Virus record (IMG/VR): IMGVR_UViG_3300036985_004989
Span: 1 to 21,485 of that record
Origin: a virus
Strand: one strand, 5' to 3'
DNA: 21,485 bases
Both the position numbers and the translations under genes were made by a program. The notes beneath the pieces are model-generated. The model ran no database searches. It had not been told where the DNA came from and worked only from the letters and a program-made list of their open reading frames with translations. How positions within the stretch are numbered: position 1 is the first letter of the stretch; each line of letters opens with the position of its first letter. This document shows, one piece after another, positions 1,213 through 21,377 of the stretch.

Positions 1213-1222
1213 AATTTTAACA

Positions 1223-2601: not shown

Positions 2602-2605
2602 ATAT

Positions 2606-2794: not shown

Positions 2795-2822
2795 GTTTAA
2801 TGAATTTAATAATATTGTATAT

Positions 2823-2850: not shown

Positions 2851-2858
2851 TATAAAAT

Positions 2859-3470: not shown

Positions 3471-3474
3471 ATTA

Positions 3475-3966
3475 TTAATTTAAAATTTCTAAAACTCTCT
3501 CATTACTTAATAATCAAAAATTAGATAACATTCTTATTCCATTAATAGTTCTTTCGTCTTTTAAATCTATTATATTTGCACAATCAAAATCTTTTATAAT
3601 TGTTTTCATTATAGATTTTCTCATTGTTCTTGTGTCTTCATCAATAGACATTGAATCTATTGTCATTTCGTAATTATCTATTCAAACTCTTTCATCAAAT
3701 GTAAGTTTATTTCTAAAATCAGATTTAGTTAATTGTATAGGAAAAGGTTTTACATTATAACTTATCATAATGTTATCATCATTTTCAGTATATACATTTT
3801 CTATGTATTGATTTACTAATATATCAGGCAAACTAGCTCTTATAACCTCTTTATATCAAAGTTTTGATAATTGATCTTTATTCGGGTTTGATATCCAAAC
3901 ATCATCAAACAATATTGTAGGGTCTGAATAGATAATATTTCAATCTATTAGTTTAGCAAATTCCAT
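3475..3966 (-). CDS. 163-aa protein, possible tail-fibre assembly or tail accessory protein
   Basis: 163 aa; 4 of 5 glycines are TGA. It is acidic and mixed alpha/beta with no membrane segment. The short phrase ENVYTENDDNIMISYNVKP, followed by LTKSDFRNKLTFDERV, resembles the small acidic proteins encoded after phage fibre genes, which often act as chaperones or attach fibres. I cannot name a family. It lies 3 bp downstream of the 1150-aa fibre and 4 bp upstream of the FISUMP gene, in one transcription unit. Confidence 0.6.
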
Positions 3967-3969
3967 ATA

Positions 3970-7422: not shown

Positions 7423-7440
7423 AATTTTTTAAATTAATTT

Positions 7441-7917
7441 TTAAGTTTGTCAATTAATCACCGAAGCAACTAATGTCCCATAACCACCAGCAGATGTAGT
7501 TTCCATTGCCATTACTCTTGCCCACATTGCTGTTACTGGAATAGGGAAATAAAAATTTACTGCTGATCCAGGAGTTCCAGCTAAAATATAATTACGATCT
7601 CATATTGTACTTTCTCAAACACTAGAAACAACACTAAAAGAAACCTCAATTTGTTCTGTATACCATTCAGCGGCTGCAGTTGGCGGAGTGTCTTCATTGT
7701 CTGATATAGCGTATTGCACTTTTATTTTGAGTTTAGGCAGTGTTGCACCAGCATTAGCAGTATATGTTCAAGCTATCGCTAATTGATTGATTAGACGCGA
7801 TCTTACCGCTTTGTCTTCATTCTGTGCTGTACTTTCTGCTACTAAAGCAAATGTACCTGTTAGAGTTTGTGGAGTTGTGCGAACTCTTTTAACTCGGGCT
7901 ATAGGTGAATAAGTCAT
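7441..7917 (-). CDS. 158-aa phage structural protein, unknown
   Basis: 158 aa, 4 of 11 glycines TGA. Beta-rich composition with phrases such as KLKIKVQYAISDNEDTPP, AAEWYTEQIEVSF and a final AMWARVMAMETTSAGGYG recalls small virion proteins (head-tail or fibre-base) with a jelly-roll-like strand pattern. No family named. It starts 27 bp after the terminator that closes the HNH cassette and ends 18 bp before the long fibre. The leader TTAAAAAATAATATG has no Shine-Dalgarno sequence. Confidence 0.65.
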
Positions 7918-7943
7918 ATTATTTTTTAAATTAATATATTTGT

Positions 7944-7970
7944 AAAAGGGAGGGCTAACCCTCCCCTTTT
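7944..7970. terminator. Strong GC hairpin terminator, possibly bidirectional
   Basis: Inverted repeat AAAAGGGAGGG / CCCTCCCCTTTT with a 4-nt loop; one C is bulged. It has A-runs and T-runs on both sides, so it can act as an intrinsic terminator in either direction. On the minus strand it lies 8 bp after the HNH stop codon. It stands out as the most GC-rich stretch in the region. Late transcripts coming from the capsid genes must read through it to reach the fibre genes, since no promoter is visible in the 26 bp before the next gene. Confidence 0.8.
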
Positions 7971-7977
7971 ATTTGTT

Positions 7978-8538
7978 TTAAGCTTTTGTTTTATTAAGTT
8001 TGGTTATATAGTTGTTCATTCTTTTAGTGATTTTAATTTTAAGTATCCAAATAAATTTTTTAATAGGGTCTTTCATATATAGATGTACTTGTCCTTTATA
8101 AAATTTTGTAGGACTTATTTCACAATGTTGATGCTGAGTTAATAATTGTAAGTTTTCTATTCTATTATCATCTCTAATACCATTTATATGATGAACATGT
8201 TCATTTGTTTTTAAATATCTTCCAATATTTTGTTCAATTATATATCTATGTTCTCTTATTAAACCATCTCTATCACAATTAGGGTGTTTTGGCATTCTAA
8301 TTCTGATATAACCATCAATATCTTTTATTCTTTGTTTATAACTTAATTCTCTACATTCTTTAGAACAAAATAATTGACAATGCCCTATTTTTAATGTATT
8401 TATTTCTGATATAAAATCTTTTCCACATCCTTTACATTGTTTAGTATAAAATTTATCTTTACACTCTTTAGAACAATATTTTCTGAAACCTTTTATAGTA
8501 GGTTTAAATTCTTTCTGACAATACTTGCATAATTTCAT
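7978..8538 (-). CDS. HNH endonuclease with two zinc knuckles, probable homing endonuclease
   Basis: 186 aa from the ATG at 8538, chosen because it follows the usual TTTAAATATATG leader; a longer frame to 8595 overlaps the promoter. Residues 1-30 (MKLCKYCQKEF, then YCSKECKDKF) and about 34-66 (CKGCGKDF, then FCSKECRE) hold two CxxC...CxxxC zinc sites. The catalytic HNH_3-type core is EHVHHINGIRDDNRIENLQ. Such proteins nick or cut DNA and spread as free-standing mobile genes in phages. None of its glycines is TGA although neighbours use it, and it has its own promoter and terminator. Both point to a separately acquired cassette. Confidence 0.85.
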   Translation of the reverse strand: MKLCKYCQKEFKPTIKGFRKYCSKECKDKFYTKQCKGCGKDFISEINTLKIGHCQLFCSKECRELSYKQRIKDIDGYIRIRMPKHPNCDRDGLIREHRYIIEQNIGRYLKTNEHVHHINGIRDDNRIENLQLLTQHQHCEISPTKFYKGQVHLYMKDPIKKFIWILKIKITKRMNNYITKLNKTKA

Positions 8539-8545
8539 ATATTTA

Positions 8546-8565
8546 AAGTTAAATAATATTAACTT
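8546..8565. promoter_or_regulatory. Inverted repeat at HNH transcription start, candidate operator
   Basis: AAGTTAA-6-TTAACTT, a perfect 7-bp inverted repeat, lies just downstream of the predicted -10 of the HNH promoter and 8 bp before the HNH start codon. It could be a repressor site or a hairpin in the leader that hides the start codon. Confidence 0.45.
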
Positions 8566-8566
8566 A

Positions 8567-8595
8567 ATTGTATAGAAACTATGCTGTAATGTCAA
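8567..8595 (-). promoter_or_regulatory. Predicted promoter of the HNH gene
   Basis: Minus strand TTGACA (8595-8590), 17-bp spacer, TACAAT (8572-8567). The -35 is a perfect match and the -10 matches at five of six positions. It lies in the 81-bp gap after the capsid gene and gives the HNH gene its own expression signal. Confidence 0.6.
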
Positions 8596-8619
8596 TGATA
8601 TATTGATATAATGGCTTAA

Positions 8620-9558
8620 TTATGCCGTAATTCAAACTATACCCCTATAATCAATTACTCCGGCAGAAGCTGCGTAATCAAATCTATATGTTTCTCCACC
8701 TGTTGTTGTTTTTGTTTTATCAAGTGTAACCATAGTTGGGGCAATTGATTCAAGGTAAGTTAATGTATGGAAAAGTTTATCTCCAATTAAATAACAAGTT
8801 GTATCACTACCTCCTACTACTGATGACAAAAATCCCCAACTTACTGGATTGATTGTACCACTATCTGCATTTTGAATATTTGTTTTGCCATTTAATGGAT
8901 TATCGTATCGGTTAGCTGTACTTGGTGAGCCATCTGATTGAAGTATTTTTCGTGCTTCGTAAATCAATGCTGGTGGAACAATTAAATGAGATCCGTTTAT
9001 AGCACCAATGATTCCGTCATGATCTTTTAATTCAAATAGTTTTTTGATTGCTAATTGTAAGTTAGATTCAGTGAAACCTCCAGTTACAATGTTTGATTGT
9101 ACTGTTCCAGTTGTACCAATTTTATGATTAGCATTTAAAAGTGATAATCAGTCCCAACATAAAGAAGTCGTTACAGATCCTCTTAATACTTGTGCCATGA
9201 TATCATCTTTAGTTTGCATCATTCGGTAACCAGCTCGTGAAGCTTCTCGAGTGATAACATCCATGTTATCAAATCGTTTCATTAATTGTGAGTATGGTAA
9301 TTCTTTTTTGAATACTCGTTGAGAAATCATTAAAGATCCAATTTCATTTAAATCTACTTGTGGGTATGCTGCATTTTCTGAAACTTCAGATAATAATCAC
9401 ATACCAGTGTTTACCGCAAAGAGTTCATCTTTACGTTTAGGAGATGTTACATTGAAGAACATATCCCCTACAGGTTTATACATGTTTGCTCCTGATAGAA
9501 ATGATTCAAGAACTTTCATATTAGTATTTAAACTCTGATTCGAGGTTAAAGTAGCCAT
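8620..9558 (-). CDS. Major capsid protein, Mu gpT-like
   Basis: 312 aa. The central phrase CWDGLSLLNANHKIG, then VTGGFTESNLQLAIKKLFE, DHDGIIGAI and HLIVPPALIYEARKIL match the Mu-like head subunit (gpT) family, which has the HK97 fold. The C-terminus RFDYAASAGVIDYRGIVGITA also fits. Only 3 of 27 glycines are TGA (after M52, in CWDG, and in IVG), yet these three would split the gene into fragments under the standard code. It follows two capsid accessory genes and the probable scaffold. The low TGA use in the most abundant virion protein suggests selection for the faster GGN codons. Confidence 0.88.
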
Positions 9559-9589
9559 ATTATTTTAATTTTAATTTGTAAAAAATTTT

Positions 9590-9621
9590 AAGTATTATTT
9601 TTTTAATACTCTTTAAGTATT
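9590..9621. repeat. Three alternating AATACTT/AAGTATT inverted repeats between decoration and capsid genes
   Basis: Copies at 9590-9596, 9604-9610 and 9615-9621 alternate in direction, so two mutually exclusive hairpins can form. On the minus strand one hairpin (AGTATT, A-rich loop, AATACT) is followed by TTAAAATTTTTT. It may act as a weak terminator or an mRNA processing and stability element that sets capsid protein dosage. Confidence 0.4.
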
Positions 9622-9622
9622 A

Positions 9623-9925
9623 TTATCTAAATACTTGATAGTAAACTACTGTACTTGCTCCTGGGTCAGCAGAAAAAGTAAAAGTAATTGTATCAGTCGT
9701 TGCGACTGCTTTATTCAAACTTACTGAATTGGTAGAACTAATCATTGTTGCTAAAACTAAATCTGTTGCTAATACACCAGTTACTGTTTGAGCTTTTGAA
9801 GTACCTCCACCAGCATAAGCTGATGAACCACTAAAATACATTATTGGTTGTAAAGTACCATTGACATAATATCAATTAAGTGCATCTACCGTAGTAAAAT
9901 TTGAAGAAGTGACTGCTTGTGTCAT
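9623..9925 (-). CDS. 100-aa capsid-associated (decoration-type) protein
   Basis: 100 aa with one TGA (NGYYVNG). The second half, VLATDLVLATMISSTNSVSL, then TFTFSADPGASTVVYYQVFR, is a pattern often seen in small beta-sandwich proteins encoded beside phage major capsid genes. It sits between the probable cement protein and the capsid gene. Function as a head decoration protein is inferred from place and composition. Confidence 0.65.
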
Positions 9926-9950
9926 ATTTCTTTAGGTTAATTGATAATTA

Positions 9951-10454
9951 CTAAGCTGTCCAGAAATTACATCGTAGGAATACTTCACATTCTCCTGTTG
10001 TAGAATTATATCCTAGTAATTTTGCAATACCTTTAGTTGCTGTACCTTGATCAAATGTTGCTACACCTGCTGCAGAAACATCTATTGTTCGATTAAGATA
10101 TAATTGAGACGCTGCTAGTGATCCTTTTGTTAAAGCACCAATTTTACAGTATAATCCCGTTCCTACTGGAATAGTTACTACTACTTCACCATCAACTGAT
10201 GCTGTTTGTGTTGAATCTCCTGCTGCAATACCGATAAGAACATTGTCAGATGATGCTTGTGCACTATCTGCAATAGTAGTTACATATCCAGCGTTTGAGC
10301 CATCAACAATAACTAAATCACCAATTTTGATTGCTTTAGTGTTTGCTTTTACAATCATACCTTTTGAGGCAGTAGCTGGTAAAGGCATAGACTGAGACAT
10401 TGTCCCTGCAAATGATAAACCGTTTGTTACTGGTTTAATGTTAAAACTTGCCAT
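9951..10454 (-). CDS. Capsid cement/decoration protein (DUF2190-like)
   Basis: 167 aa. The pattern ASKGMIVKANTKAIKIGDLV, then VLIGIAAGDSTQ, then DGEVVVTIPVGTG resembles DUF2190-type cement proteins, in which a small beta-barrel binds the capsid surface. All 18 glycines are GGN, none TGA. Its stop is TAG, the only one in the window, and so shows that TAG is still a stop. Its leader AATAAAATAATATG follows the genome's AT-rich start pattern. It lies between the scaffold and the 100-aa protein. Confidence 0.72.
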   Translation of the reverse strand: MASFNIKPVTNGLSFAGTMSQSMPLPATASKGMIVKANTKAIKIGDLVIVDGSNAGYVTTIADSAQASSDNVLIGIAAGDSTQTASVDGEVVVTIPVGTGLYCKIGALTKGSLAASQLYLNRTIDVSAAGVATFDQGTATKGIAKLLGYNSTTGECEVFLRCNFWTA

Positions 10455-10486
10455 ATTATTTTATTTAATTAATAATGTTAGAAATA

Positions 10487-11296
10487 TTAGATTGACACTG
10501 ATAATTGACCGTCATCATATGAGACTTTACCACCTAAACTTTGTAGTTTAAATGCTTCTTTCATCAATGATTTTGGGATTCAGGTCATTCTTTCTGTAAA
10601 TTCGTTTGGAACTCAATCAACTAGTGCTTCAATTTTTTCCTCACCTCTTACCTCAGCCCTTTCAGGTGATTTAAAGGTGGTTAGTTTATCAGGATTTACG
10701 ATTAGAAGAGCTGATTTTAGTGAGCGTTCATAATCCATACCTGATTTAGCAAATTCGTCTGCTGTTTCCTTTACTTTGAGATATTCATCTTCGTTAAGAG
10801 TATTTAATTTAGCAAATTCCTTTGCTTTATATACTTTTTCAAAGTTAAGCTCTTGCTCAACACGAGACAGTATCTTCTCTCATAGTCATTCGATTCTATT
10901 AGGTGTTTCCACTTCATTTGATTCCATTGATTTGAGTTCTTCGGGGAATCTTTTTTTGGCTTCATTGTAAATAGCAGGCTTTGACTTTAAAAGCTCAAGT
11001 GCTTGCTCTTTATCATCTAAATCCATAATAAGACGAATAGCCTCAGTTGCTTTACTTCATAATTCTCTAGCTGTATTGATGGCTGTTTTAAGTTCATCAT
11101 TTGCTTTGAGTGAAGGAGCTTCTGGGGTTGGTGTATCTTCTGATGCAGGGAGTTTATCCGTACTATCAGAGACTTGTTCTTGCGATTTTTTTAACTGGTC
11201 AAGAGTAAGTAATGTTCAGTCTGAATTGGTCATTGAAACTTCGTTTAAGATGTCTCAATTTTCCTCCAAAGGAACATTGGGGAGATTGTTTTCCAT
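10487..11296 (-). CDS. Probable head scaffolding protein
   Basis: 269 aa, very acidic, helical and Glu/Lys/Leu-rich, with 7 TGA and 5 GGN glycines. It starts MENNLPNVPLEENGDIL, has a Pro/Glu/Thr-rich linker (ASEDTPTPEAPSLKAND), long helices (DDKEQALELLKSK, KILSRVEQELNFEKVYK) and a C-terminal GGKVSYDDGQLSVSI. This composition and the position directly before cement and capsid genes match phage scaffolds. No protease motif is seen. It is the first gene after a promoter at 11331-11359. Confidence 0.7.
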
Positions 11297-11330
11297 ACGT
11301 ATATGTTAAAGAACTATTATTTCTGTATAT

Positions 11331-11359
11331 AGAATAATCTTATATTTATTTATTGTCAA
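11331..11359 (-). promoter_or_regulatory. Predicted promoter for scaffold/capsid genes
   Basis: Minus strand TTGACA (11359-11354), 17-bp spacer, TATTCT (11336-11331). The -35 is perfect; the -10 matches four of six, including the key A2 and T6. It lies in the 70-bp gap before the scaffold gene, so capsid genes may get extra transcription. Confidence 0.55.
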
Positions 11360-11366
11360 GTCTTTT

Positions 11367-11684
11367 TTAATTATTCCCTCTGCCCTCTAATTCTTGAATC
11401 ATTCTAAGCATATAATCATCATCTACTTCATCACTAGATAAAGTATTTATATCTTCTGGCAAACTTTCTATTTTAGACAAGAGATTATTACTAATATCGT
11501 CCACCACACGCAAATAGCCATTAGTATTGCCTCTGTCATATTCTGTTAAATTAGGTGTTATAATATAATTTTCTATACAATTATTACGCAAAGATTGTAA
11601 CATCTTAACGAAAGCTTTTCCCTCTTGTCTTGACATTAATTTAGTTAAACTTTCAAAATCATTCGAGTTTAGAATTTGTTTCAT
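11367..11684 (-). CDS. 105-aa protein resembling small Bbp19-type phage proteins
   Basis: 105 aa, helical: SLTKLMSRQEGKAFVKML, then EYDRGNTNGYLRVVDDISN. The arrangement of an early GxxF/L helix and a later RGNxxGYL helix is like Bbp19-type small phage structural proteins that lie near portal and capsid genes. The match is a reading by eye and weak. It starts 2 bp after the stop of the collagen-like gene. Confidence 0.55.
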   Translation of the reverse strand: MKQILNSNDFESLTKLMSRQEGKAFVKMLQSLRNNCIENYIITPNLTEYDRGNTNGYLRVVDDISNNLLSKIESLPEDINTLSSDEVDDDYMLRMIQELEGRGNN

Positions 11685-11686
11685 AA

Positions 11687-12313
11687 TTATAACTTAAATC
11701 ATAGTAAATATATCTTATACGACGCATTCTTTTTAGTCAAGTTCATTATTGATAACTCATTTATGTAATTACCTATTATACTATAATTTCGATTATCGAT
11801 TATATACTCTTTTTCTATCATTATTTTATGCTCTTTCTGTTCTCACATAGAGTTATAATCCTCTATTAATATTATTCTAGTGCAATAGTATCAATCAAAT
11901 TGACATTTAAAATTTTCATGTCAATAAAACATTCATCTGTATATAACAGTATCTCAATAATCTCCTTTATCTCATCTAATTCACACTCAAGTTTCTCATT
12001 GATCTCATTTAGGTCATTGTGGTCAAACAATAGTGTCTCATTTATCACCTTTTAATCATTTTTCTCATCTATATCATTGTTTTCATTCTATACTTTCCCC
12101 TTTATCACCTTTATCTCATTTGCATTTACTGATAAAGTTATCATCATTTATTAATATTTCTTTAATATCAGATATTACTTTATTAGTATCACAATCTTTT
12201 CAATCCTTACCGTTATTACCGTCAATTCAAGGCACTCATTGAATACCTTGAGGTCATCTATATATTTCATCAAGTTGTGTATCAGAATTTCAAGATCGAG
12301 CTAGTGAGTGCAT
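11687..12313 (-). CDS. Collagen-like protein (G-X-Y repeats written with TGA)
   Basis: 208 aa. Residues about 24-41 (GPQGIQGVPGIDGNNGKDG) and about 63-118 (GDKGDKGES, then GYRGEKGLKGDKGD, GPQGPKGDQGETG and GDKGDYGD) are collagen triple-helix repeats. Twenty-four of 32 glycines are TGA, spaced exactly every third codon, so UGA must be glycine: no other residue forms a collagen helix. The last 90 residues (from MFYGHENF) are a non-repetitive tail with several Tyr and Ile, perhaps a trimerisation or anchoring domain. The start is the ATG one base after the portal stop. Collagen-like phage proteins are usually fibres or head/neck appendages; the place after the portal suggests one of these. Confidence 0.9.
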
Positions 12314-12314
12314 A

Positions 12315-14459
12315 TTATTTTCAGATATTATTTGCAGTTTGTGAATTTGCTAGTTGTCATGGTTGGTTTGGTTCTGTCATTGTTGGGCTAGGTATTCATT
12401 GTAGGTTTTGTGGTACTTGTCATTGTTGTATTGGTGTTTGCATTGGTACTGCTTTGTTATCATTTTGTGCGTATGATGATTTTAAATTCATTAATGAGTT
12501 GTTAAGGAAATTCTCAAACATCATCTTTTGTTGTACATTGAAATTTTTGTATGTTTGTTTATCTTTCTCATCAATGATTATTTGTATATCATCAATTGTT
12601 GGTGTTTCTAGTGGTATTGGTTCAATACTTAATGATATAGCCTCAATAGCTTTATCTATATTATCCATAGTGTTTTTATTCAATGTTGGGAATATATTGC
12701 GTGTATCAAGGTTAAGTTTTTCAGCCATTGATTTGATCATTGCAAATAAATCAATTTTAGTATTAAGATCAGGCATTATTTGTAGTGTTTGCATTAATGT
12801 ATTTAAGAAAGTCATTGTATTCTTAATTGTATCCTCATTTTCATCCCCCTCAGTTATATTATCTTTAATGATAATCTTATAATCAACACTAAATATATCT
12901 TTAACTAACTCAAACGAATCATTATAATTAGGTGTTTTATCAAATTTAGGTATTCTTGTTCATCTTGATCCTTGTGCAACTTTAAATCCTTCTACATCTA
13001 CCATGATTGGTTTCTTATTTTTCCTATCTTTAAGCAAGAATTGTTTTAATAATTCTAAAATCATTTCTGTTTCATATCGTACTGCTTCATATTCTTGCAT
13101 TTTAACCATAGCTTTTAAGCGTTTGGTGAGAATTCTCTCTTTATATGCAGTTTGTGTAGCTAATTGATTAGGATTTGAATATAGACCCCTTGCGTCGTCT
13201 CATATCGCTACTGTCATTTCGTCTCCTAGTATATTTCTAAAGTTTAAATAGTTTTGATCAAGGCTTCCTACTTCTAAAGGCATAATACTATCTGATAGTT
13301 TACCTCATTTAAGTCCATTAACTCTTAGCATTGCCCCAGGTTGTAATTTTTGTTTACCTGGGTTAAAATCAACATCACCACTAATAAATAAAGGTCGTTG
13401 CAATAAGAATTTCATATTCTCCATTGCTAACTGGTTTAATACATCATTATTAATGATAAGATTGTAAACTATTTCTAGTACTCAATTAGCCCACACGCTA
13501 TCATTACGAGGGTAAAACTTATAATGAACATAAGGTAATTTCTTATGATTGAACTCTAAACGACTATCATAAATTGGAATACCATTAGCACACATAACCA
13601 TTAGATCTACTTCTTGATTATAGTATGTGTATAAATGGACATATTCACCAGCCGTAAGGGTAGTGTTTTGACTGTTTTCTTCCCAGAATGGCGTAATAAC
13701 TGCATTATAAAATGATACATCGCGGCTAACCCCAGAAACAAGATCAGTATTACGATATTTAGGATTGTTTCCATAATATTTTTTAAAATAAGATATAGGT
13801 ATAATTCTATCCTCAGTACAGTCTCTAGCTCTAATATATGAAGCCTCATCATGTAAAGTCAAAGCTGTTTCATCTATAAAGAATCGTCTTGGGTCAACTC
13901 TCCGTGTATAGATTTGTTCTTTTAGTGATGCCTTAGGTTTGAAATTACCTTCATCGTCTCTTAAATATACATCAGCATCATCACTCTCATATCCGACATA
14001 TTTAATTCCGTTACCGAAATCAATACAATCAGTGAGCATTCGTGCATGTTCTGTGTAGTAGTTTCCTTCCCTTTTAAGATAATCAACAGTGTATTCAAGA
14101 GCTTGTGCACACATTTGGGATTTATCATCTCATGATTTACCAATAGCTTTTATTTTTACTTTAGCTATATTATCAAGTAACTCAGAATAAAATCGTTGTG
14201 ATATACCAAAAGCAGTAGGAAACCTAATACCAGCGTTATAATCCTCTCATTTATCAAGTAGTCTTAGATAAGAGTCTTTGAAGTCTTGTAATCTGTTCCA
14301 CCGTTGTTGCACTCTTACTTTCTTATAGATTTGTTTTACAACTCTTAGTGTGACAAATTGTTGAAGATCTCTGTCTTTATCTGACATTGATCACATCTTT
14401 CATTTAGTAGGATTAGATTGGTACATTTGCAATATTTCATCTAAATTTAAATCATCCAT
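12315..14459 (-). CDS. Portal protein, 714 aa
   Basis: 714 aa with 12 TGA of about 35 glycines. The order after large terminase, and phrases like YTRRVDPRRFFIDETA, ARDCTEDRIIPISYFKKYY and the long helical part LATQTAYKERILTKRLKAM, match large portal proteins of the P22-like kind, which form the dodecameric DNA gate of the head. The C-terminal 60 residues are Gln/Pro/Asn-rich (QTPIQQGQVPQNLQGIP), as in barrel or linker tails. The start ATG (14459) has the ATTTAAAAAATATATG leader. Without TGA as Gly only two fragments of 210 and 131 aa would appear. Confidence 0.82.
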
Positions 14460-14470
14460 ATATTTTTTAA

Positions 14471-14662
14471 TTATTTAGTAGCATTAGGGAGAATTTGAAA
14501 GGTTTCTTCGAGAGTAGCTTTAACTATATCACGCATATCATCGAATCTATAATCTTTACCTTTCTTTTTAAGTAAATATTTTAAGTTTTCTTTGGTTACA
14601 TGATTAATTAAACAATACATCCCATAGTCAGATAAGTATTTATATTTATCGTGTACTTGCAT
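14471..14662 (-). CDS. 63-aa basic protein, unknown
   Basis: 63 aa, Lys/Tyr-rich (VHDKYKYLSDYGMYCLI, then LKYLLKKKGKDYRFDDM), no TGA and two GGN glycines. It sits between large terminase and portal, 9 bp after the terminase stop and 11 bp before the portal start. The leader ATTATAATATATG matches other starts. Possibly a packaging accessory; no family recognised. Confidence 0.6.
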   Translation of the reverse strand: MQVHDKYKYLSDYGMYCLINHVTKENLKYLLKKKGKDYRFDDMRDIVKATLEETFQILPNATK

Positions 14663-14671
14663 ATATTATAA

Positions 14672-15952
14672 TTAATAAGTAAATTCTTGGTATCAATAGT
14701 TATCCTCATAAATATTATTATCTTGTTTTACGCTATTGTCAAGTGGTACCTTCTCAAATTGCCAACAAACAAGTGCAAGACTCATTACTCTATCATCATG
14801 TATATTAGTAGGACTAACTATCTTTATTTTAGTTCACAACTCATTTAGTTCATATCTCATTGCTCTTAACTCATTAAACAACTCCTCATCATTATTTAAC
14901 CATATTTTACCATTCTCAAGAAATATTTGCAAGTTTCTTAGTAATTGATCCTTACTTTTTTCACTAAATGTAAATGGATATACATTAGGTATCTTACGAC
15001 TCAAGTAATCATAGAACGGTTGTCCTGGTCATGTTGCATCCATAACTATTTCAGGTTTATCATACCTTCTCCATATAGCCTCTATACGAGCCTCACTATC
15101 AGGATATTCACTTCGTCACCATCTTTCTTGTGTTATTACTCTACCAGTATTAGCATTAAGCACTGTTAAAACTGTATAATCTCCACCATGTCAAGCAATA
15201 TCAAGTCCTATTCTACATTTAGTTCATAAATCATACTCACCTTGATATACTCTACTTTCCAAGTCTCTAAATACTTGTGATGCTCCCTCTAAGAATTTTA
15301 CCATATATTCCTGATCAAACATATCTTGAGACATTTCTCTTTTTTCTTGTTCTATTACTTCATTGCTCAATACATTCGTTTGAGTACAATCTTTAATCAT
15401 AACAAACCACCTATCACTTTCCTTATTCTTTTGTATTAATTCCCATGCGTGATTCATACCTTTAGGAGTAAACGAGAAAGTAGCACTACCACCATTCTCA
15501 GCTAAGATTGGTCTTAATGTTTCCCAAACTTCTGGTCTTTGTTCAGCATACTCATCAAACTTAATATCAATAGGATTAGTACCTCGTAATCTATCATAGT
15601 TCTCACTTCCAACTAATTGTATTATACTTCAATTAATAAGTGTTATATTTAACTCACTAGCATTAACTGATTTAATTATCTGTGGTGGTATATAGTCAAG
15701 CATCTTCATACTAGTTCTAGAATCAATTGCATTCCATATAATCTTCTTACACATTTCGTAAGTAGGCTCGACAAAATAATATAATCACATCTTGCTTATA
15801 GCTCTCTTAATTGTATCTTGCCATAACATTAATGTTTTACCAGCACGACGATGTAATACAACAATAGCTCTCTTAATTCATCAATCAAGAGAAGCATGAT
15901 AATCTAACTGATAAGGTCTTGGTGTATACTTATAAGGTATTGTTATCTCCAT
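14672..15952 (-). CDS. Terminase large subunit (ATPase and nuclease)
   Basis: 426 aa, typical length. ATPase: adenine-binding YTPRPYQLDYH near residue 9, Walker A HRRAGKT 34-40, Walker B IDIKFDE 128-134, coupling motif FSFTPKG 159-165. RNase H-like nuclease: D251 in RIGLDIAGHGGD, D305 in VMDATGPGQ, and a C-terminal HDDRVM. Several motif glycines (for example in DIAGH and DATGPG) are TGA; 10 of 24 glycines are TGA. It packages DNA into the prohead with the portal. It overlaps the small terminase by 23 nt. Confidence 0.93.
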
Positions 15953-16298
15953 TTATTTTAGAATAATCAATTACATTAATTGTGTGTGTTACTGTTGCAT
16001 CAGTCTCTGTCTTTATACTAAACTCATTCTTATTCTTACGCTCTAACCACCATCTACTATTAAACTCATCTTTCTTTTCTATACTATTAATAATATTCAT
16101 TTTAGCTCTTAATGACGGCGTTTGTTTTAATATTTCTTTCTCTTCAACGAACTCAGGATGTCGACTGCAGAAATCGTAAAATGTTCTTTCCCCTACATTA
16201 CAAAACAAAAGTGCTTCCTTATCGTTTAAACCCATTGCAAAAGCCTTTTTAAATTCATTTAGTTTATCTTCAGTCATCACTGTTGGCTTTCCTGTCAT
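15930..16298 (-). CDS. Terminase small subunit
   Basis: 122 aa. The N-terminal helix-turn-helix reads KLNEFKKAFAMGLNDKEALL, then FCNVGERTFYDFCSRHPEF, followed by the oligomerisation helix and the hallmark SRWWLERKNKNEFS near residue 82. This is the usual layout of small terminases that recognise the pac/cos site. No TGA; four GGN glycines. It overlaps the large subunit gene and starts 5 bp after the NinG-like HNH gene. Confidence 0.83.
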   Translation of the reverse strand: MTGKPTVMTEDKLNEFKKAFAMGLNDKEALLFCNVGERTFYDFCSRHPEFVEEKEILKQTPSLRAKMNIINSIEKKDEFNSRWWLERKNKNEFSIKTETDATVTHTINVIDYSKINGDNNTL

Positions 16299-16303
16299 AT
16301 ATT

Positions 16304-16660
16304 TTATATATTAATTATATATTTATTAAATATTGCTTCATAGTCAGTATTCTTCTTTATGGTCATTGCTTCCCTATGTAGTTTCTCCAGTATATCTTTA
16401 CCGTATTCCTCTTGTAGTCTTAGAGCGTATATAGGGTAATTACCTTTTTTAAATACATTACAACCTACACATTGACAATGACAATTTTCTTCGGAATATC
16501 TAGTACCTAAATGTGATCTGCTTTCATAGTGTCCACATTGTGATTCACTAGGTTTCATTTGTTTACCGCAAGTATAACAAGTATGATTATCTCTATTCCT
16601 TATAAACTTAGAGAATACATTATCAGCTTTATCCCTTATTTTAATAATTGATTTAGTCAT
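16304..16660 (-). CDS. NinG/Rap-like HNH protein
   Basis: 118 aa. The layout KADNVFSKFIRNRDNHTCYTCGK, then SQCGHYESRSHLGTRYSEEN, then CHCQCVGCNVFKKGNYPIY resembles the lambda NinG (Rap) family, with zinc cysteines (CYTC, CVGC) and the GHY...N...CN HNH-like core. Family members act on recombination intermediates; HNH proteins beside terminase genes can also help packaging. Six glycines, none TGA. The start overlaps the end of the 47-aa gene by 8 nt. Confidence 0.8.
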   Translation of the reverse strand: MTKSIIKIRDKADNVFSKFIRNRDNHTCYTCGKQMKPSESQCGHYESRSHLGTRYSEENCHCQCVGCNVFKKGNYPIYALRLQEEYGKDILEKLHREAMTIKKNTDYEAIFNKYIINI

Positions 16661-16796
16661 TCTTATTAATTAATTTCTCTACCATTATATTGATAATAGT
16701 ATCAAGTTTATGATCTAACCTTGATAACTCATCAACGATTAAATCCTCTATACGCTCATCGTTTACTTTATATCCATTTTGTATATCTGTTCTCAT
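16653..16796 (-). CDS. 47-aa protein, unknown
   Basis: 47 aa, MRTDIQNGYKVNDERIEDLI, then DELSRLDHKLDTIINIMVEK. Acidic, helical with a heptad-like pattern, so possibly a coiled-coil dimer. It begins 27 bp after the tRNA gene and overlaps the NinG-like gene. Its single glycine is GGA. No family recognised. Confidence 0.6.
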   Translation of the reverse strand: MRTDIQNGYKVNDERIEDLIVDELSRLDHKLDTIINIMVEKLINKND

Positions 16797-16823
16797 AATA
16801 ATTATAATAATTATATTAAATTT

Positions 16824-16897
16824 TGGAGCGGGTAATGAGATTCGAACTCATGTTAAAGGTGTTGAAGACCCGTGAACTACCACTGTTCTATGCCCGC
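16824..16897 (-). tRNA. tRNA-Gly(UCA), decodes UGA
   Basis: A 74-nt cloverleaf including encoded CCA. Acceptor GCGGGCA pairs with TACCCGC (one C-A mismatch at 6-67). D arm GAAC/GTTC with GG in the loop. Anticodon stem CGGGT/ACCTT with loop CTTCAAC gives anticodon UCA (16865-16863). T arm ATGAG/CTCAT with loop TTCGAAT. The discriminator is U73. G1-C72, C2-G71, G3-C70, U73 and C35 are the main bacterial glycyl-tRNA identity elements, so it should be charged with glycine and read UGA. This agrees with the glycine positions in the genes. It is in the operon before NinG and terminase, and its first 10 nt overlap the end of an 86-aa gene. Confidence 0.93.
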
Positions 16898-17148
16898 ATT
16901 AATTTCCTTTCTTCTTTAAGTATTCAGCTATATTTTTTTATCTCATCATAATCATTGTTTATAATATAATAAAATAACTTATTAATATATTCAGGGGTAA
17001 CTGTTAATGTGTAAATCTTATTTATTCAATCAATTACTGACACACTTGTTGTTAATACTTTTCAATCTCTTTTAAATGTAAGTATACCATCATAACAGTC
17101 ACCCTTATAATCTATAATCTCATCATATATTAATCCATTACATATCAT
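16888..17148 (-). CDS. 86-aa protein, unknown; ends inside the tRNA gene
   Basis: 86 aa from ATG at 17148 with three TGA (KRDGKV, VIDGINK, YSGIL) and three GGN glycines. Mixed strand and helix; YTLTVTPEYINKLFYYIINN may be a folded core. Its TAG stop lies in the 5' part of the tRNA, so tRNA processing would cut this message. It is the first clear TGA-using gene downstream of the operator promoter. No family recognised; coding is supported by its length and the placing of TGA at plausible glycines. Confidence 0.5.
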
Positions 17149-17173
17149 AATTGTATCTCTAATATATAAATTA

Positions 17174-17437
17174 TTACCCGTAATGTTTCATTTCATTTAT
17201 TATTCTTCTTACTACATTACCTATCTCGTGTCTAAAATTATTTATAAAATCAGGTCCGTTACATTCGATTATTTGTTCTACCCTTTTAGCGAATACCGGT
17301 GAATTCAAAACATCTTCAACATTAGATTCTTTTTCTTTAAGTTCGAAGTATTCTCTTTTAGCGTCTTGTTCAGAATGATAACCTAAATAATCATCATCAA
17401 TAGTTTCAGTTAAATTGTGTTCATAGTGTCTATTCAT
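17174..17437 (-). CDS. 87-aa acidic protein, unknown
   Basis: 87 aa: MNRHYEHNLTETIDDDYLGY, then KREYFELKEKESNVEDVL and a helical end NNFRHEIGNVVRRIINEMKH. No TGA, four GGN glycines. No family recognised. It lies 19 bp after the 58-aa gene in the operator-controlled operon. Confidence 0.6.
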   Translation of the reverse strand: MNRHYEHNLTETIDDDYLGYHSEQDAKREYFELKEKESNVEDVLNSPVFAKRVEQIIECNGPDFINNFRHEIGNVVRRIINEMKHYG

Positions 17438-17456
17438 AGTATAAATTATTAATAAA

Positions 17457-17633
17457 TTAATCTACTAACTTTGCTACTCCTTGTTGTATTAAATTTTGTT
17501 CTTTTGATTTCTCGTATAGAGTTTTATATATCTTATCTTTAAATTCGTGTGTATCTATATTCTTTATATGATCTAATGGTTTAATATTCATGATTATATC
17601 ATAAATTTCATTGTTAAACATTCATTTTTCCAT
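17457..17633 (-). CDS. 58-aa protein, unknown; TGA at codon 4
   Basis: The frame starts ATG GAA AAA TGA ATG: as UGA=Gly it reads MEKGMFNNEIYDIIMN (58 aa); if UGA stops, a 54-aa protein can start at the ATG directly after it. The rest is helical and charged (FKDKIYKTLYEKSKEQNLI). It is the first gene after the operator promoter at 17659-17686. The real start cannot be decided from sequence. Function unknown. Confidence 0.55.
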
Positions 17634-17649
17634 TATATTTGTTTTAATT

Positions 17650-17666: not shown

Positions 17667-17686
17667 TTTTTATTATTTATTGTCAA
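17659..17686 (-). promoter_or_regulatory. Predicted promoter of the tRNA/terminase operon
   Basis: Minus strand TTGACA (17686-17681), 16-bp spacer, TATACT (17664-17659). Perfect -35 and five-of-six -10. It starts right after the stop of the 92-aa gene and drives the 58-aa gene and everything downstream. Confidence 0.68.
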
Positions 17687-17951
17687 TATCTTTTAAATTA
17701 GGGAACAATAAAGAATTATGTATCATGTCATCAAGGATAATTCTCTCTTTTAAATTATCTATAACTTTTTTAATTACTTCATGCTTAATTTTACCATTAC
17801 ATAATACTATTATCTCATCTAAACATTGTTTAAGTATATCAACTTTTAGACGATAATGTCTAAGTTCACCTACACTAGTATTAAATAAGTCCTCATAATG
17901 AACTCTCATTTCTTTATTAAATTTAAGAGAAGCTTTTATATTTTTAGTCAT
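17673..17951 (-). CDS. 92-aa helical protein, unknown
   Basis: 92 aa: MTKNIKASLKFNKEMRVHYE, then VDILKQCLDEIIVLCNGKIK and VIKKVIDNLKERIILDDMIH. All-helical, basic, without recognised domain. Two GGN glycines, no TGA. It begins after TTATTAATTTATAAATATATG, a clean example of the AT-rich non-Shine-Dalgarno leader. Last gene of the early leftward block. Confidence 0.62.
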   Translation of the reverse strand: MTKNIKASLKFNKEMRVHYEDLFNTSVGELRHYRLKVDILKQCLDEIIVLCNGKIKHEVIKKVIDNLKERIILDDMIHNSLLFPNLKDIDNK

Positions 17952-17980
17952 ATATTTATAAATTAATAATTAAATTCTTA

Positions 17981-18820
17981 TTAAACCCTTATTGTTGAAT
18001 ATTTTATATCCTCATAATAATCTTTATTTTCTCTATACCTTTCATGTTTAAAACATAATTCCCTACATCCTATATAACTATTACCAAACCCTTTTGATTT
18101 CTCCCAATCACCAGCTTTCTTATAAGTACTTGTTTGAAAATGAAGTTGTGTTTTATGTTTAATATTACCAAAATTATCTATATAAATAATTTCATTAGTC
18201 ATTTCCCAATCACTATGTAAGTGTCCCGAACATATAATATCAGCGTCAATCATTGATGATCTACGACTAGCCCCAATTACTCCTTTAGTTACTGGACTAT
18301 TACCTCCACTACCATGAGTATAATATAAAGTTTTAATATAATTTATATTACCTCTACCAACAATTTCAAACTTAAATTTAATAAACCCTGTATAGTCTCC
18401 GATTAATACTTCTCTCCCCTCTAATTTCATTCCTAAAGCAAAGTTATTTAATAAAGATAATTCATGCCTTTGGCTTACACTTATTTCATGATTACCAGTA
18501 CTAACAAATTTTATATCATAATTTTTAAAGAATCTTACAGCGTCAGCAACAATTGAATCAAAGTAATTACCATTACAATATTCCTTTCGTATATCTTTTT
18601 TACCTGTACGAGGATCAAACTTAGCACCCATAGCATCAAATAAATCTCCTATTATAATAATAGGTACTTTTTTTTCTTTTGCATTATCTAAATCATATTT
18701 TAGTTTACGCCTATCACAATCAATAGAATCAAAATGTATATCAGACATAACTAATATACTGCTTCCCCCCTTATAAGGAGAAATAATATCCATGTAATAA
18801 CAATCATTTTTTTTGTACAT
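17981..18820 (-). CDS. Calcineurin-like metallophosphoesterase
   Basis: 279 aa with the full set of dimetal motifs: SDIHFD near residue 26 (DxH), GDLFDAMG near 58 (GDxxD), STGNHE near 107 (GNHE), THGSGG near 169 and SGHLH near 197 (GHxH). Such phage enzymes may act as nucleases (Mre11/SbcD-like), nucleotidases or RNA-modifying phosphatases; the substrate is not evident. A cysteine-containing C-terminus (YIGCRELCFKHERYR) is extra. All 24 glycines are GGN; not one TGA. In the early block, so likely a DNA metabolism or host takeover role. Confidence 0.85.
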   Translation of the reverse strand: MYKKNDCYYMDIISPYKGGSSILVMSDIHFDSIDCDRRKLKYDLDNAKEKKVPIIIIGDLFDAMGAKFDPRTGKKDIRKEYCNGNYFDSIVADAVRFFKNYDIKFVSTGNHEISVSQRHELSLLNNFALGMKLEGREVLIGDYTGFIKFKFEIVGRGNINYIKTLYYTHGSGGNSPVTKGVIGASRRSSMIDADIICSGHLHSDWEMTNEIIYIDNFGNIKHKTQLHFQTSTYKKAGDWEKSKGFGNSYIGCRELCFKHERYRENKDYYEDIKYSTIRV

Positions 18821-18845
18821 ATAAATAAATTAAAAATAAAATAAA

Positions 18846-19037
18846 TTAATTACCACCATACCTTTTCTCTTCTTCATCACCGATCAATTCTTTATTTGTC
18901 CATCTTCCAAACCTCTTTTTACAATCAAGACAATTCCACTCACTAATACCATCATAATTATTAGGACTATCCCAAGCATACTCAACGCCAATTAAATTTT
19001 CACTGCCACAGCTAACACATTTTTCAATATATTCCAT
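18846..19037 (-). CDS. 63-aa zinc-ribbon protein
   Basis: 63 aa with CVSC near residue 7 and CLDC near residue 36, a four-cysteine zinc ribbon; the motif SEWNCLDCKKRFGRW resembles small nucleic-acid-binding or regulatory ribbons found in phages. Seven glycines, all GGN. It is 1 bp from the 85-aa gene upstream and 25 bp from the phosphoesterase gene. Function unknown; possible transcription or DNA-binding factor. Confidence 0.68.
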   Translation of the reverse strand: MEYIEKCVSCGSENLIGVEYAWDSPNNYDGISEWNCLDCKKRFGRWTNKELIGDEEEKRYGGN

Positions 19038-19038
19038 A

Positions 19039-19296
19039 TTAATTATTTTGTTCTTTTATTATAATATCAAGTATAACCGGATCATGTTTAGAATTATAAA
19101 CATCTAATCTTTCCATTATAGTATAAAACAAATTTTTTAATGCAATACATTGTGCCTCACAATATTCTAAATTATCATCAATTTCAAATACTTCTTGCAC
19201 TCTTGTATACCCTTCTTCTTCATCATTATAAACACAATTATTAGAAGAAAGAATAAAACCGTTACTTACCTTTTTAATTTCTAAAGTGTTTTCCAT
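19039..19296 (-). CDS. 85-aa acidic protein, unknown
   Basis: 85 aa from the ATG at 19296, chosen for its TTAATTTATATATG leader; a longer frame upstream runs into the previous gene. MENTLEIKKVSNGFILSSNN, then EIDDNLEYCEAQCIALKNLF. An N-terminal beta-hairpin and a C-terminal helix are likely. Two GGN glycines. No family recognised. Confidence 0.6.
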   Translation of the reverse strand: MENTLEIKKVSNGFILSSNNCVYNDEEEGYTRVQEVFEIDDNLEYCEAQCIALKNLFYTIMERLDVYNSKHDPVILDIIIKEQNN

Positions 19297-19303
19297 ATAT
19301 AAA

Positions 19304-19585
19304 TTAATTAAAATATTTATTGATAATAAAAATAGCTCCATCAGGATTCTTTCCATGGAGTAAGTATTCATAAGTCCATGCTCTAATCCTCTCAAAAGAC
19401 TCCTTTATTGATTTATCACCATCTACTTCTTTAACTAATTTTAAATACATTTCTTCACTCCATCCTAAAGAGAAACATAAACTAGGTATAGTTAATGGCA
19501 TATAGTTTATACCATCCCATCTACCATTATTTATAAACTTCTTTGAATCGAAGTAATCATTGATTGATTTTTCTAATACATTCAT
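19304..19585 (-). CDS. 93-aa small-terminase-like DNA-binding protein
   Basis: 93 aa from the ATG at 19585. The order MPLTIPSLCFSLGWSEEMYL (helix-turn-helix), then SFERIRAWTYEYLLHG and the end KNPDGAIFIINKYFN follows the pattern of P22 gp3/Terminase_6-like small terminase or related HTH proteins. Since a separate small terminase lies beside the large subunit, this one may be an early regulator or a second DNA-recognition protein. Six GGN glycines, no TGA. First gene behind the early leftward promoter. Confidence 0.62.
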   Translation of the reverse strand: MNVLEKSINDYFDSKKFINNGRWDGINYMPLTIPSLCFSLGWSEEMYLKLVKEVDGDKSIKESFERIRAWTYEYLLHGKNPDGAIFIINKYFN

Positions 19586-19615
19586 ATAAATAAAATAATA
19601 AATAACTTGATATAA

Positions 19616-19644
19616 AGTATACACTTTTTTCTATTAAAAGTCAA
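19616..19644 (-). promoter_or_regulatory. Early leftward promoter
   Basis: Minus strand TTGACT (19644-19639), exactly 17 bp, TATACT (19621-19616). It drives the small-terminase-like gene and the early block. The -10 lies within GTGTATACTT, sharing GTATAC with the operator at 17650-17666. Confidence 0.72.
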
Positions 19645-19653
19645 TAAACAAAT

Positions 19654-19689
19654 AAAAAAAACAGCCTATATTACTTAATTCATATAGAC
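19654..19689 (-). terminator. Intrinsic terminator of the short leftward transcript
   Basis: On the minus strand GTCTATAT (19689-19682), 10-nt loop, ATATAGGC (19671-19664), then TG and eight T (19661-19654). The 8-bp stem (one G-T pair) and long U-run make a good intrinsic terminator. It ends the unit begun at the promoter 19835-19862 and lies just upstream of the early leftward promoter. Confidence 0.7.
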
Positions 19690-19830
19690 CATTTTAATAA
19701 ATCCACTAGATTCTTTTTTAAACCCATTGTAATTAGTCGACATCATACAACTAGGAGGAAAAATCTTAAACCTTTTCGTGGGAGCTTTTTTCGATAGGGG
19801 GTATCTAAACCACTTAAAAGCATAAACCAT
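19675..19830 (-). CDS. 51-aa basic ORF, possibly leaderless; or a non-coding RNA
   Basis: ATG at 19830 to TAA at 19675: MVYAFKWFRYPLSKKAPTKR, then FKIFPPSCMMSTNYNGF. Very basic, aromatic-rich. The predicted transcription start falls within a base or two of the ATG, so translation would be leaderless; the stop lies in the loop of the terminator hairpin. No TGA, glycines GGG and GGA. Its codons (CCC, ACG, AGG, TCG) are unlike its neighbours, so the transcript may instead be a small RNA of about 170 nt. Coding status is open. Confidence 0.4.
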   Translation of the reverse strand: MVYAFKWFRYPLSKKAPTKRFKIFPPSCMMSTNYNGFKKESSGFIKMVYMN

Positions 19831-19834
19831 ATAT

Positions 19835-19862
19835 AGTATATAGATATATTTTAAATTGTCAA
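19835..19862 (-). promoter_or_regulatory. Inner leftward promoter of the short transcript
   Basis: Minus strand TTGACA (19862-19857), 16-bp spacer, TATACT (19840-19835). Its -35 is 22 bp from the -35 of the rightward promoter, back to back, so a single regulator could control both. Confidence 0.62.
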
Positions 19863-19884
19863 TATATTATTATTAATTTTTCAT

Positions 19885-19913
19885 TTGACTTTATTTCTTA
19901 TATAGAGTATAAT
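19885..19913 (+). promoter_or_regulatory. Rightward promoter, near-perfect sigma70 consensus
   Basis: TTGACT (19885-19890), 17-bp spacer, TATAAT (19908-19913), only one base off full consensus. The predicted start near 19918-19920 is exactly the first strand of the 13-bp helix of the structured RNA. It should be very strong in any sigma70 host. Confidence 0.8.
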
Positions 19914-19938
19914 GGTTTTGCGCATATAAGTAATTCAA

Positions 19939-19975
19939 ATTAGATTCTAATATTCTAAAAGCTATTAGATTCTAA
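19939..19975 (+). repeat. Two direct copies of ATTAGATTCTAA
   Basis: Exact 12-bp copies at 19939-19950 and 19964-19975, 25 bp apart; the core TTAGATTCTAA is itself a near-palindrome. They lie in the first loop of the structured RNA, so they may be RNA hairpins or DNA operators just downstream of the rightward promoter. Confidence 0.6.
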
Positions 19976-19993
19976 AAGAGTTAAAACTCAAAT

Positions 19994-20047
19994 AAACCGA
20001 CACTATCTTATATGCGCAACAATTAAGAGCTATAGTGTCGGTTTTTT
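19994..20047 (+). terminator. Terminator (or attenuator) 22 bp before the rightward genes
   Basis: A 13-bp perfect stem AAACCGACACTAT/ATAGTGTCGGTTT with a 25-nt loop, followed by TTTTTT. The loop contains the 3' strand of helix A, so pairing of A with A' competes with or accompanies terminator folding. This is the layout expected of regulated termination. Confidence 0.75.
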
Positions 20048-20069
20048 ATTATCAATTAATTTAAATTAT

Positions 20070-20393
20070 ATGAGGGCACATTCTAATAGAAAAATTTTAC
20101 TATTATTTGTTGAACAAAATGGTAAATGTTATTATTGTAAAGATGATTTAATACATGATTGTATTAATAATAAAAGTCCTCAAATAGATCATATAATACC
20201 AAAAAAAGAATCTATTAATAATTGTATTAATAATTTATGTTTAACTTGTAGTTATTGTAATACAGCCAAAGGTAAAAAAAGTGAATCAGATTTTCTAAAA
20301 TATATAGAGCCTTATTTATTAAATAAATGTGAAAAAAGAAATTTAAGAAAATATAATTTAATGCTAAATTTAAATAACAATTTTATTAATTAA
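20070..20393 (+). CDS. Small HNH endonuclease
   Basis: 107 aa. KCYYCKDDL near residue 18 and LTCSYCNTAKGKKSESDF near 58 are the zinc cysteines of a treble-clef HNH domain, with the catalytic QIDHIIPKKE between them (near 38-47). Such proteins are DNA nickases or endonucleases. It is the first gene downstream of the structured RNA and 11 bp before the initiator gene. Two glycines, both GGN. Confidence 0.8.
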   Translation: MRAHSNRKILLLFVEQNGKCYYCKDDLIHDCINNKSPQIDHIIPKKESINNCINNLCLTCSYCNTAKGKKSESDFLKYIEPYLLNKCEKRNLRKYNLMLNLNNNFIN

Positions 20394-20404
20394 TTTAAAA
20401 ATAT

Positions 20405-21331
20405 ATGTCTATTTTACACAAAGTTAACAAAGAGCGTTGGACAACCATAGACGCTTCTATTATAAATGATGAAAGGTTGTCAATTAAATCATTCGGATTA
20501 TTAGTCAAGATTTTATCTTTACCAGATAATTGGCATTTCAATGAATCTGGACTACAAACAGTATTCAATATTGGTAAAGATCAATTATCTTCATCACTAC
20601 ACGAATTGGAAGAAACAGGATATTTATTAAGAAAGAAAGTAAGAAATGAAAAAGGTCAATTTGGATTAATAGATTGGTTTATTTCAGAAGAAAGAGATTC
20701 TTTACTTTGGAAAAATATTAAAGATGATGATTATCCGGTACAGGAAATACCGGTACAGGATTATCCACTACCGGAAAACCCGATACCGGTTAACCCGCAA
20801 CTATATAATACTAATATAATCAATACTAAAGAAACTAATACTAATATATTAAATACTAATATAATAGAAAAAAATACTAAAAAAGAAATTACAAGTTTAT
20901 CAATATTAGAAAATACATCAGAAACACTAAAAAATAAAATAGAAGAATTTATTGAATATAGAAAAGAAATAAAATCACCCCTTAAATCTTTCGGCCTTAA
21001 GGCTTTAATATCAAAACTAGATAAACTATCAGGAGGAGATGAAAAAACGAAATTAGACATATTAGACGAGTCTATGGCTAATGGTTGGAAAGGAGTGTTT
21101 GAACAGAAAAACTTTGGTAATGGTAAATCTAATGGAATATCAAATTCACAAAAAATGTTTATATTACAGAAACAAGCAGAATTAATGCAGAAAGTTAATA
21201 AAGAAATAGAAAGATGGACAGTTGCTGGAGCTGATAATGAATATATTGCTAAAATAATAAAAAAAGATTTTGGTTATTTATTTATAGGATTAGGAATTAA
21301 ATTTGATTATGATACATTAAAGCCATTTTAA
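20405..21331 (+). CDS. DnaD-like phage replication initiator
   Basis: 308 aa. The N-terminal winged helix (RLSIKSFGLLVKILSLPDNW, then SSLHELEETGYLLRKKV) is that of phage replisome organiser proteins. Residues about 108-160 are a linker of five-residue repeats (DYPVQ, EIPVQ, DYPLP, then NTNII, NTKET, NTNIL). The C-terminal part (IEEFIEYRKEIKSPLKSFG, then MANGWKGVFEQ) resembles the DnaD-type domain of such initiators that loads helicase. All 18 glycines are GGN. The linker DNA carries candidate origin repeats, as in lambda O. Confidence 0.8.
   Translation: MSILHKVNKERWTTIDASIINDERLSIKSFGLLVKILSLPDNWHFNESGLQTVFNIGKDQLSSSLHELEETGYLLRKKVRNEKGQFGLIDWFISEERDSLLWKNIKDDDYPVQEIPVQDYPLPENPIPVNPQLYNTNIINTKETNTNILNTNIIEKNTKKEITSLSILENTSETLKNKIEEFIEYRKEIKSPLKSFGLKALISKLDKLSGGDEKTKLDILDESMANGWKGVFEQKNFGNGKSNGISNSQKMFILQKQAELMQKVNKEIERWTVAGADNEYIAKIIKKDFGYLFIGLGIKFDYDTLKPF
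20735..20880 (+). repeat. 15-bp-period repeats and DnaA-box-like site in the initiator gene, candidate origin
   Basis: CCGGTACAGGA occurs at 20735-20745 and 20750-20760 (15 bp apart). TTATCCACT (20761-20769) matches the DnaA box TTATCCACA at eight of nine bases. AATACTAA-type units start at 20807, 20822, 20837, 20852 and 20873: spacings 15, 15, 15 and 21. An AT-rich stretch follows. Iterons, a DnaA-like box and AT-rich DNA within an initiator gene are the features of a phage origin; the 15-bp period also encodes the pentapeptide linker, so selection at protein level is an alternative. Confidence 0.5.
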
Positions 21332-21344
21332 AAAAATATAAAAA

Positions 21345-21377
21345 TACTCTTGACTTTATAAAAATTAAGAGTAAAAT
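21345..21377 (+). promoter_or_regulatory. Promoter with overlapping inverted repeat before the last gene
   Basis: TTGACT (21350-21355), 16-bp spacer, TAAAAT (21372-21377). A 7-bp inverted repeat TACTCTT (21345-21351) and AAGAGTA (21367-21373) overlaps the start of the -35 and of the -10, as expected for an operator. It also could be a weak hairpin at the end of the initiator transcript. Confidence 0.5.

Follow-up and report, generated by a model that had tools for sequence, protein, structure and literature searches.

The window analysed here is the whole of the 21,485-bp IMG/VR virus record IMGVR_UViG_3300036985_004989. Its right-hand part carries an operon encoding an HNH endonuclease and an O-like/DnaD-like replication initiator, preceded by a sigma-70-type promoter and by a short element (19918–20047) in which two exact 13-bp inverted repeats interlock in the order A-B-A'-B' with no gap between B and A' (Table 1). 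In-frame TGA codons are abundant in the late genes (72 within 3970–7422, and 10 in the terminase gene), and alignment with terminase relatives places TGA codons 25, 56 and 108 at glycines that are invariant among them, implying that the phage reads TGA as glycine. TGA is dense across the late genes of 1–17637 and absent from the genes at 17673–21331, so that translation of the early region is the same in code 25 as in the standard code. The anticodon UCA is carried by a tRNA whose acceptor start, GCGGGCA, we take to be tRNA-Gly-like and which presumably decodes TGA as glycine. In both Absconditabacteria and Gracilibacteria TGA encodes glycine, and their phages can use the same code (PMC10746230); since this phage appears to do so, its host probably belongs to one of these groups of ultra-small CPR bacteria. 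The pattern of the tRNA(UCA), possibly too strict, had no matches in 379 Patescibacteria genomes.

Table 1. Features of the window's replication region and tRNA, and the interlocked segments found before two other Patescibacteria initiators.
Feature	Position	Strand	Description
tRNA, anticodon UCA	16824–16897	(-)	
Promoter, sigma-70-type	19885–19913	(+)	TTGACT 19885–19890, 17-nt spacer, TATAAT 19908–19913
A	19918–19930	(+)	TTGCGCATATAAG; transcript 5' end; exact pairing with A'
Inner hairpin arm	19931–19983	(+)	starts right after A; ~-12 kcal/mol; near-inverted repeat TTAGATTCTAATA/TATTAGATTCTAA
B	19994–20006	(+)	AAACCGACACTAT; 5' strand of terminator stem; exact inverted repeat
A'	20007–20019	(+)	inside terminator loop, abuts B; pairs with A
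L3 connector, 12 nt	20020–20031	(+)	separates A' from B'; from sequence
B' (20032–20044) and U-tract	20032–20047	(+)	3' strand of intrinsic terminator
HNH endonuclease, 107 aa, first operon gene	20070–20393	(+)	Pfam HNH_4, E=4e-8
O-like/DnaD-like replication initiator, 308 aa	20405–21331	(+)	PHROG 678 (E=4e-17), 4707, 186
Iterons, 15-bp period	20731–20793	(+)	4/4 exact TACCGGWWMA sites of the window, inside the initiator gene
AT-rich stretch, 15-bp repeats	20800–20949	(+)	GC 0.13–0.15; beside the iterons; probable unwinding element
L201 (G045) element	gap before initiator		A GGTGATTGC, B AAAAGTCCGTAATTCTA, A' GCAATCACC, B' TAGAATTACGGGCTTTT
L204 (G314) element	just before initiator		A ACGATGAG, B AAAAGGGCTA, A' CTCATCGT, B' TAGCCCTTTT

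A sequence-only reading of this DNA had drawn attention to two exact 13-bp complementary pairs in the order A-B-A'-B', with B and A' directly adjacent, behind a near-perfect promoter. Both pairs are indeed exact over 13 bp, the junction at 20006/20007 has zero gap, and the promoter (TTGACT-N17-TATAAT) matches the consensus at 11 of 12 positions, being one of six such sites in the window against 2.4 expected. The start had been placed at the first base of A and is predicted instead at its third, G19920, 7 nt past the -10 hexamer. The proposed length of about 128 nt holds for the predicted transcript (19920–20047, 128 nt), which begins inside A and hence retains 11 of the 13 A:A' pairs. B and B' do form the intrinsic terminator proposed, with a 25-nt loop and ending 23 nt before the operon, and a standard terminator scan overlooked it because of that loop length; three of the six Us described as following the stem are part of B'.

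Such pairing had been judged very unlikely by chance, and the statistics agree. When the 130-nt stretch was shuffled 20,000 times with its dinucleotides preserved, no shuffle had perfect interlocked stems both of at least 11 bp, and the best reached a shorter arm of 10 bp, once, compared with the observed 13 bp without a gap. When a descriptor of interlocked stems followed by a T-run was scanned over 2.53 Mb of phage and related loci, the element came first (-45.4; runner-up -37.4). Rfam held no covariance model matching it above the gathering threshold, relaxed thresholds returned chance matches only, and no DNA homologue was found, in keeping with its earlier description as unrecognised. It is very likely that the element is a real structured leader RNA.

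The nested minimum free energy of the stretch is -32.1 kcal/mol (z = -5.0). Pseudoknot-capable folding, proposed earlier as a check, is feasible: two interlocked 13-bp helices with loops of 63, 0 and 12 nt make an H-type pseudoknot, with a rough energy of -40 to -43 kcal/mol when a Dirks-Pierce-like penalty is combined with ViennaRNA stacks, or about -40 against -32 kcal/mol for the best nested fold. In a simulated growing transcript A:A' arises at about 20012–20018 and lasts until B' is nearly complete, whereupon the nested optimum moves from A:A' to B:B'. The locus has the parts of an attenuator, with a promoter, a leader and a GC-containing stem with a U-tract ahead of a gene, and the competing A:A' fold is modelled to lie within 1.3 kcal/mol of the B:B' fold and to form earlier. 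In the window the A and B helices share no positions, and any antagonism between them would be steric or kinetic and not obligatory; the 12-nt connector may leave room for a full pseudoknot, such that both opposition and a pseudoknotted end product are possible. Of the earlier proposal of a pseudoknot-like RNA or attenuator, what is well supported is that a structured RNA, equipped with a promoter and a terminator, precedes the HNH and initiator genes, and the sequence by itself favours neither form.

The HNH/initiator operon named in that reading is supported by profile matches to HNH_4 and PHROG 678; the predicted structure of the HNH protein was unusable (mean pLDDT 41). Between the terminator and the HNH start there is no good promoter (best 9/12, of which 17 are expected in the region), and thus the operon most simply relies on read-through. 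All four TACCGGWWMA iterons fall within 63 bp and are followed by a stretch of 13–15% GC, and 20731–20949 is probably a lambda-O-type replication origin inside the initiator gene. Polymerases reading through the terminator would thus transcribe the origin as well as allow the initiator to be expressed. One copy of a DnaA-box-like sequence, TTATCCACT, occurs in the same interval and may be due to chance. The linker of an initiator with 31% identity (L006) also has a 15-bp periodicity.

Leftwards of the element lies a divergent unit (19862–19650, minus strand), with an 11/12 promoter, a 51-aa open reading frame from 19830 near the predicted start, and a terminator-like hairpin with T8; the folding energy of this leftward RNA is not unusual. 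A second leftward promoter (19644–19616) lies beyond that hairpin. The motif AATTAAG is common to both divergent terminators and was judged a chance occurrence, with 13 copies in the window. At 21345–21373 a 7-bp inverted repeat (TACTCTT/AAGAGTA) flanks a TTGACT-N16-TAAAAT promoter in an operator-like arrangement.

Relatives were sought in viral and genome sequences using the initiator, terminase, capsid and HNH genes, the element DNA and tRNA patterns. DNA and protein searches of IMG/VR, phage and plasmid collections and Rfam gave no alignable relative of the element and operon. The nearest terminase relatives have at most 44% identity, and capsid and portal relatives (27–30%) were found only on L196. 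This contig, whose terminase, portal and capsid genes are related to those of the window (27–41%), is from a metagenome-assembled genome titled Thermococcaceae and is possibly misbinned; the length of its terminase open reading frame (856 aa) suggests that it contains an intein. An HNH match on L199 was rejected as a relative, being a generic HNH in an unrelated context, and other contigs with a tRNA-Gly(UCA) (L087–L090) have no early gene in common with the window.

Initiator genes for comparison were picked from sampled Patescibacteria genomes by protein similarity, not structure. The A-B-A'-B' arrangement lies directly before the initiator at two of four Patescibacteria loci, L201 and L204, in sequences unrelated to that of the window, with arms of 9 and 17 bp and of 8 and 11 bp respectively. 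L201 has no clear -35, and the order at L204 is a 12/12 promoter, a first terminator and then the interlocked element. Prophage signs are present at both: the G045 and G314 contigs each carry terminase genes, and the G314 contig integrases too, with terminase on L215 and L216 and integrase on L216. In the upstream unit of L204 (2511–2380, minus strand) the 12/12 promoter is followed by a terminator whose stem is 14 bp, with a 36-nt loop and T7. L204 has two terminators in series before its initiator, and the pairing of the one that is not interlocked is not significant (P = 0.28). On the prophage contig L215 a queuine tRNA-ribosyltransferase-like gene (phrog_887, 1787–3289) adjoins the terminase gene.

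The shuffle probability of the loop-to-leader pairing is 0/1000 for the window, 0.002 for L201 and 0.005 for L204, and these are the top three among 40 terminator-like hairpins with loops of at least 9 nt at all loci. The strongest loop-to-upstream pairings are of 13 nt (window), 9 nt (L201) and 8 nt in an 11-nt loop (L204); a fourth match, of 8 nt, lies in a 43-nt loop and is expected by chance. Before B' is made A:A' is the optimal fold in all three, with energy gaps between the A:A' and B:B' folds of 1.3, 0.6 and 1.3 kcal/mol in the window, L201 and L204 respectively. The L1 loops are 63, 10 and 6 nt and the L3 connectors 12, 4 and 1 nt in the same order; with connectors of 4 and 1 nt both helices are judged unable to complete together, and A:A' should therefore oppose the terminator at L201 and L204. 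The pairings of L201 (9 bp) and L204 (8 bp) are each modest when taken singly, and there are two cases only. L203 (G293) has neither the promoter and terminator nor the pairing, and the combination is absent upstream of the initiators of L006 and L205–L211 (the starts of L206 and L208 being approximate). L213 (G527), a Patescibacteria initiator locus that has an 11/12 promoter and a terminator whose loop is 27 nt (2491–2343, minus strand), was rejected as a further case because its 7-nt pairing is not significant (P = 0.058).

Because the layout recurs with unrelated sequences upstream of Patescibacteria prophage initiators, we favour, with moderate confidence, the reading of the element as a pseudoknot-capable transcription-attenuation leader of the phage replication operon. 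Transcription from the strong promoter at 19885 would begin at about 19920, and the 5' part of the RNA, A, is predicted to pair with A' once A' is made and ahead of B'. Synthesis of B' would then permit the B:B' intrinsic terminator, with A' in its loop. The majority of transcripts would stop at about 20047 as a folded 128-nt RNA with both ends in helices, and the remainder would read through the HNH gene, the initiator gene and the origin within it, with A:A' setting the read-through fraction. In the option that we prefer A:A' would act as a kinetic clamp, holding back the terminator and letting some polymerases pass; in the other, A:A' and B:B' would together make a coaxial pseudoknot and thereby fix the terminated product. 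The stable ~128-nt RNA would be a by-product of attenuation. We infer that the element is transcribed and terminates partially, and likewise the direction of the A:A' effect and the control of origin activation; its role would be in cis, throttling initiator expression and transcription through the origin. A wider and more doubtful proposal, offered tentatively, is that of a recurrent class of CPR-phage leaders acting as a pseudoknot-gated replication brake, in which the loop of the terminator ahead of the initiator gene is paired with a segment at the transcript's 5' end, the layout being kept while the sequence turns over completely.

The 128-nt pseudoknotted RNA could instead itself be the product, a trans-acting small RNA whose partner would be a protein or an RNA of the host or of the phage, with read-through incidental. 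Its compact fold with both ends in helices, its own near-consensus promoter and terminator and the lack of an Rfam match, as with many phage RNAs, would suit such a role, and there is a precedent in Gifsy-1 IsrK, where a single promoter yields both a small RNA and a read-through mRNA (PMC4825925). However, the only strong interaction with a gene start in the phage covers the RNA's own terminator, the remaining complementary stretches are of 10–11 nt and AT-rich with no convincing target in the phage, no sequence is conserved, and terminators with self-pairing loops recur at initiators and not elsewhere; we consider this explanation unlikely. Less probable still is a role at the DNA level, with A and A' as repressor or initiator sites sharing a TGCGCA core and B-B' merely a terminator. 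The palindrome TGCGCA is found in the window only within A and A', TCTTATAT is present again in the promoter spacer, and transcription units diverge here, the leftward one having an 11/12 promoter; against this, the exact complementarity covers asymmetric bases outside the palindrome, the origin-like iterons sit inside the initiator gene, and the pairs at L201 and L204 are unrelated in sequence and non-palindromic.

Terminators ahead of replication genes are commonplace in phages, lambda tR1 being an example, and the element might be no more than a terminated leader or an insulating terminator, with functionless pairing of its loop; the negligible chance of an exact 13-bp loop-to-leader pairing, and the location of the three best loop-paired terminators of 40 at initiators, make this very improbable. 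We give equally little credence to a type III toxin-antitoxin or AbiF-like module in which the RNA inhibits a toxic HNH nuclease. The gene order agrees, a Rho-independent terminator parts RNA from toxin in type III loci (PMC5086642) and AbiF is neutralised by a phage-encoded ncRNA (PMC12373285), but the downstream gene encodes a plain HNH nuclease and neither ToxN nor Abi_2, there is no antitoxin repeat array (two 25-nt copies at 76% only), and at L201 and L204, where the RNA layout is also present, no HNH gene intervenes between terminator and initiator. A tracrRNA or CRISPR mimic was set aside, as no repeat-like hairpin was seen and the likely hosts, Gracilibacteria and Absconditabacteria, have mostly type V-A CRISPR systems (PMC10746230).

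Gene regulation in CPR phages is almost unknown and their hosts are mostly uncultured, and the element, a defined 200-bp DNA, lends itself to tests in vitro and in E. coli that do not need the host. Should loop-to-leader pairing gate termination, it would be a compact RNA switch without a ligand-binding domain, and its location could set initiator dosage and origin transcription together. The layout in two unrelated prophages suggests what may be a new kind of RNA brake on replication, and its recurrence with unrelated sequences supplies a structural descriptor that is searchable in other phages.

A literature search of incomplete coverage found no description of a terminator-loop clamp; to our knowledge it is not a hallmark of plasmid rep attenuation, put, tR1/N, P4 CI RNA or IsrK. 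In rep mRNA attenuation of the pT181/pIP501 type the leader segment base-pairs with the stem of the terminator, and the switch is set by an antisense RNA. The element resembles these systems in having an upstream leader segment whose pairing would influence a terminator before a replication-initiator gene, and differs in that the pairing involves the loop of the terminator and that there is no evident antisense transcript. In phage P4 leader immunity the CI RNA pairs in trans; the position upstream of a replication operon, the small RNA product and the premature termination are alike, whereas no trans site was found for the element. The lambda tR1/N control lies ahead of O and P. The put RNA of HK022 is reported to act on RNA polymerase via nascent RNA alone (PMC9378689). 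With both the element would share an early phage transcript in which a cis-acting RNA or terminator governs flow into early or replication genes, and it would be set apart from put by its visible feature, the pairing of the 5' end with the terminator loop. Gifsy-1 IsrK similarly combines a terminated small RNA and a read-through mRNA under a single promoter; there, the translation of a gene linked to an antiterminator is what IsrK controls, and the abstract does not mention a pseudoknot of the element's kind (PMC4825925). Without the repeat array and the ToxN or Abi_2 proteins of the ToxI/CptI and AbiF RNA systems, the element nevertheless has the same succession of a pseudoknotted or structured RNA, a terminator and a protein gene (PMC5086642, PMC12373285).
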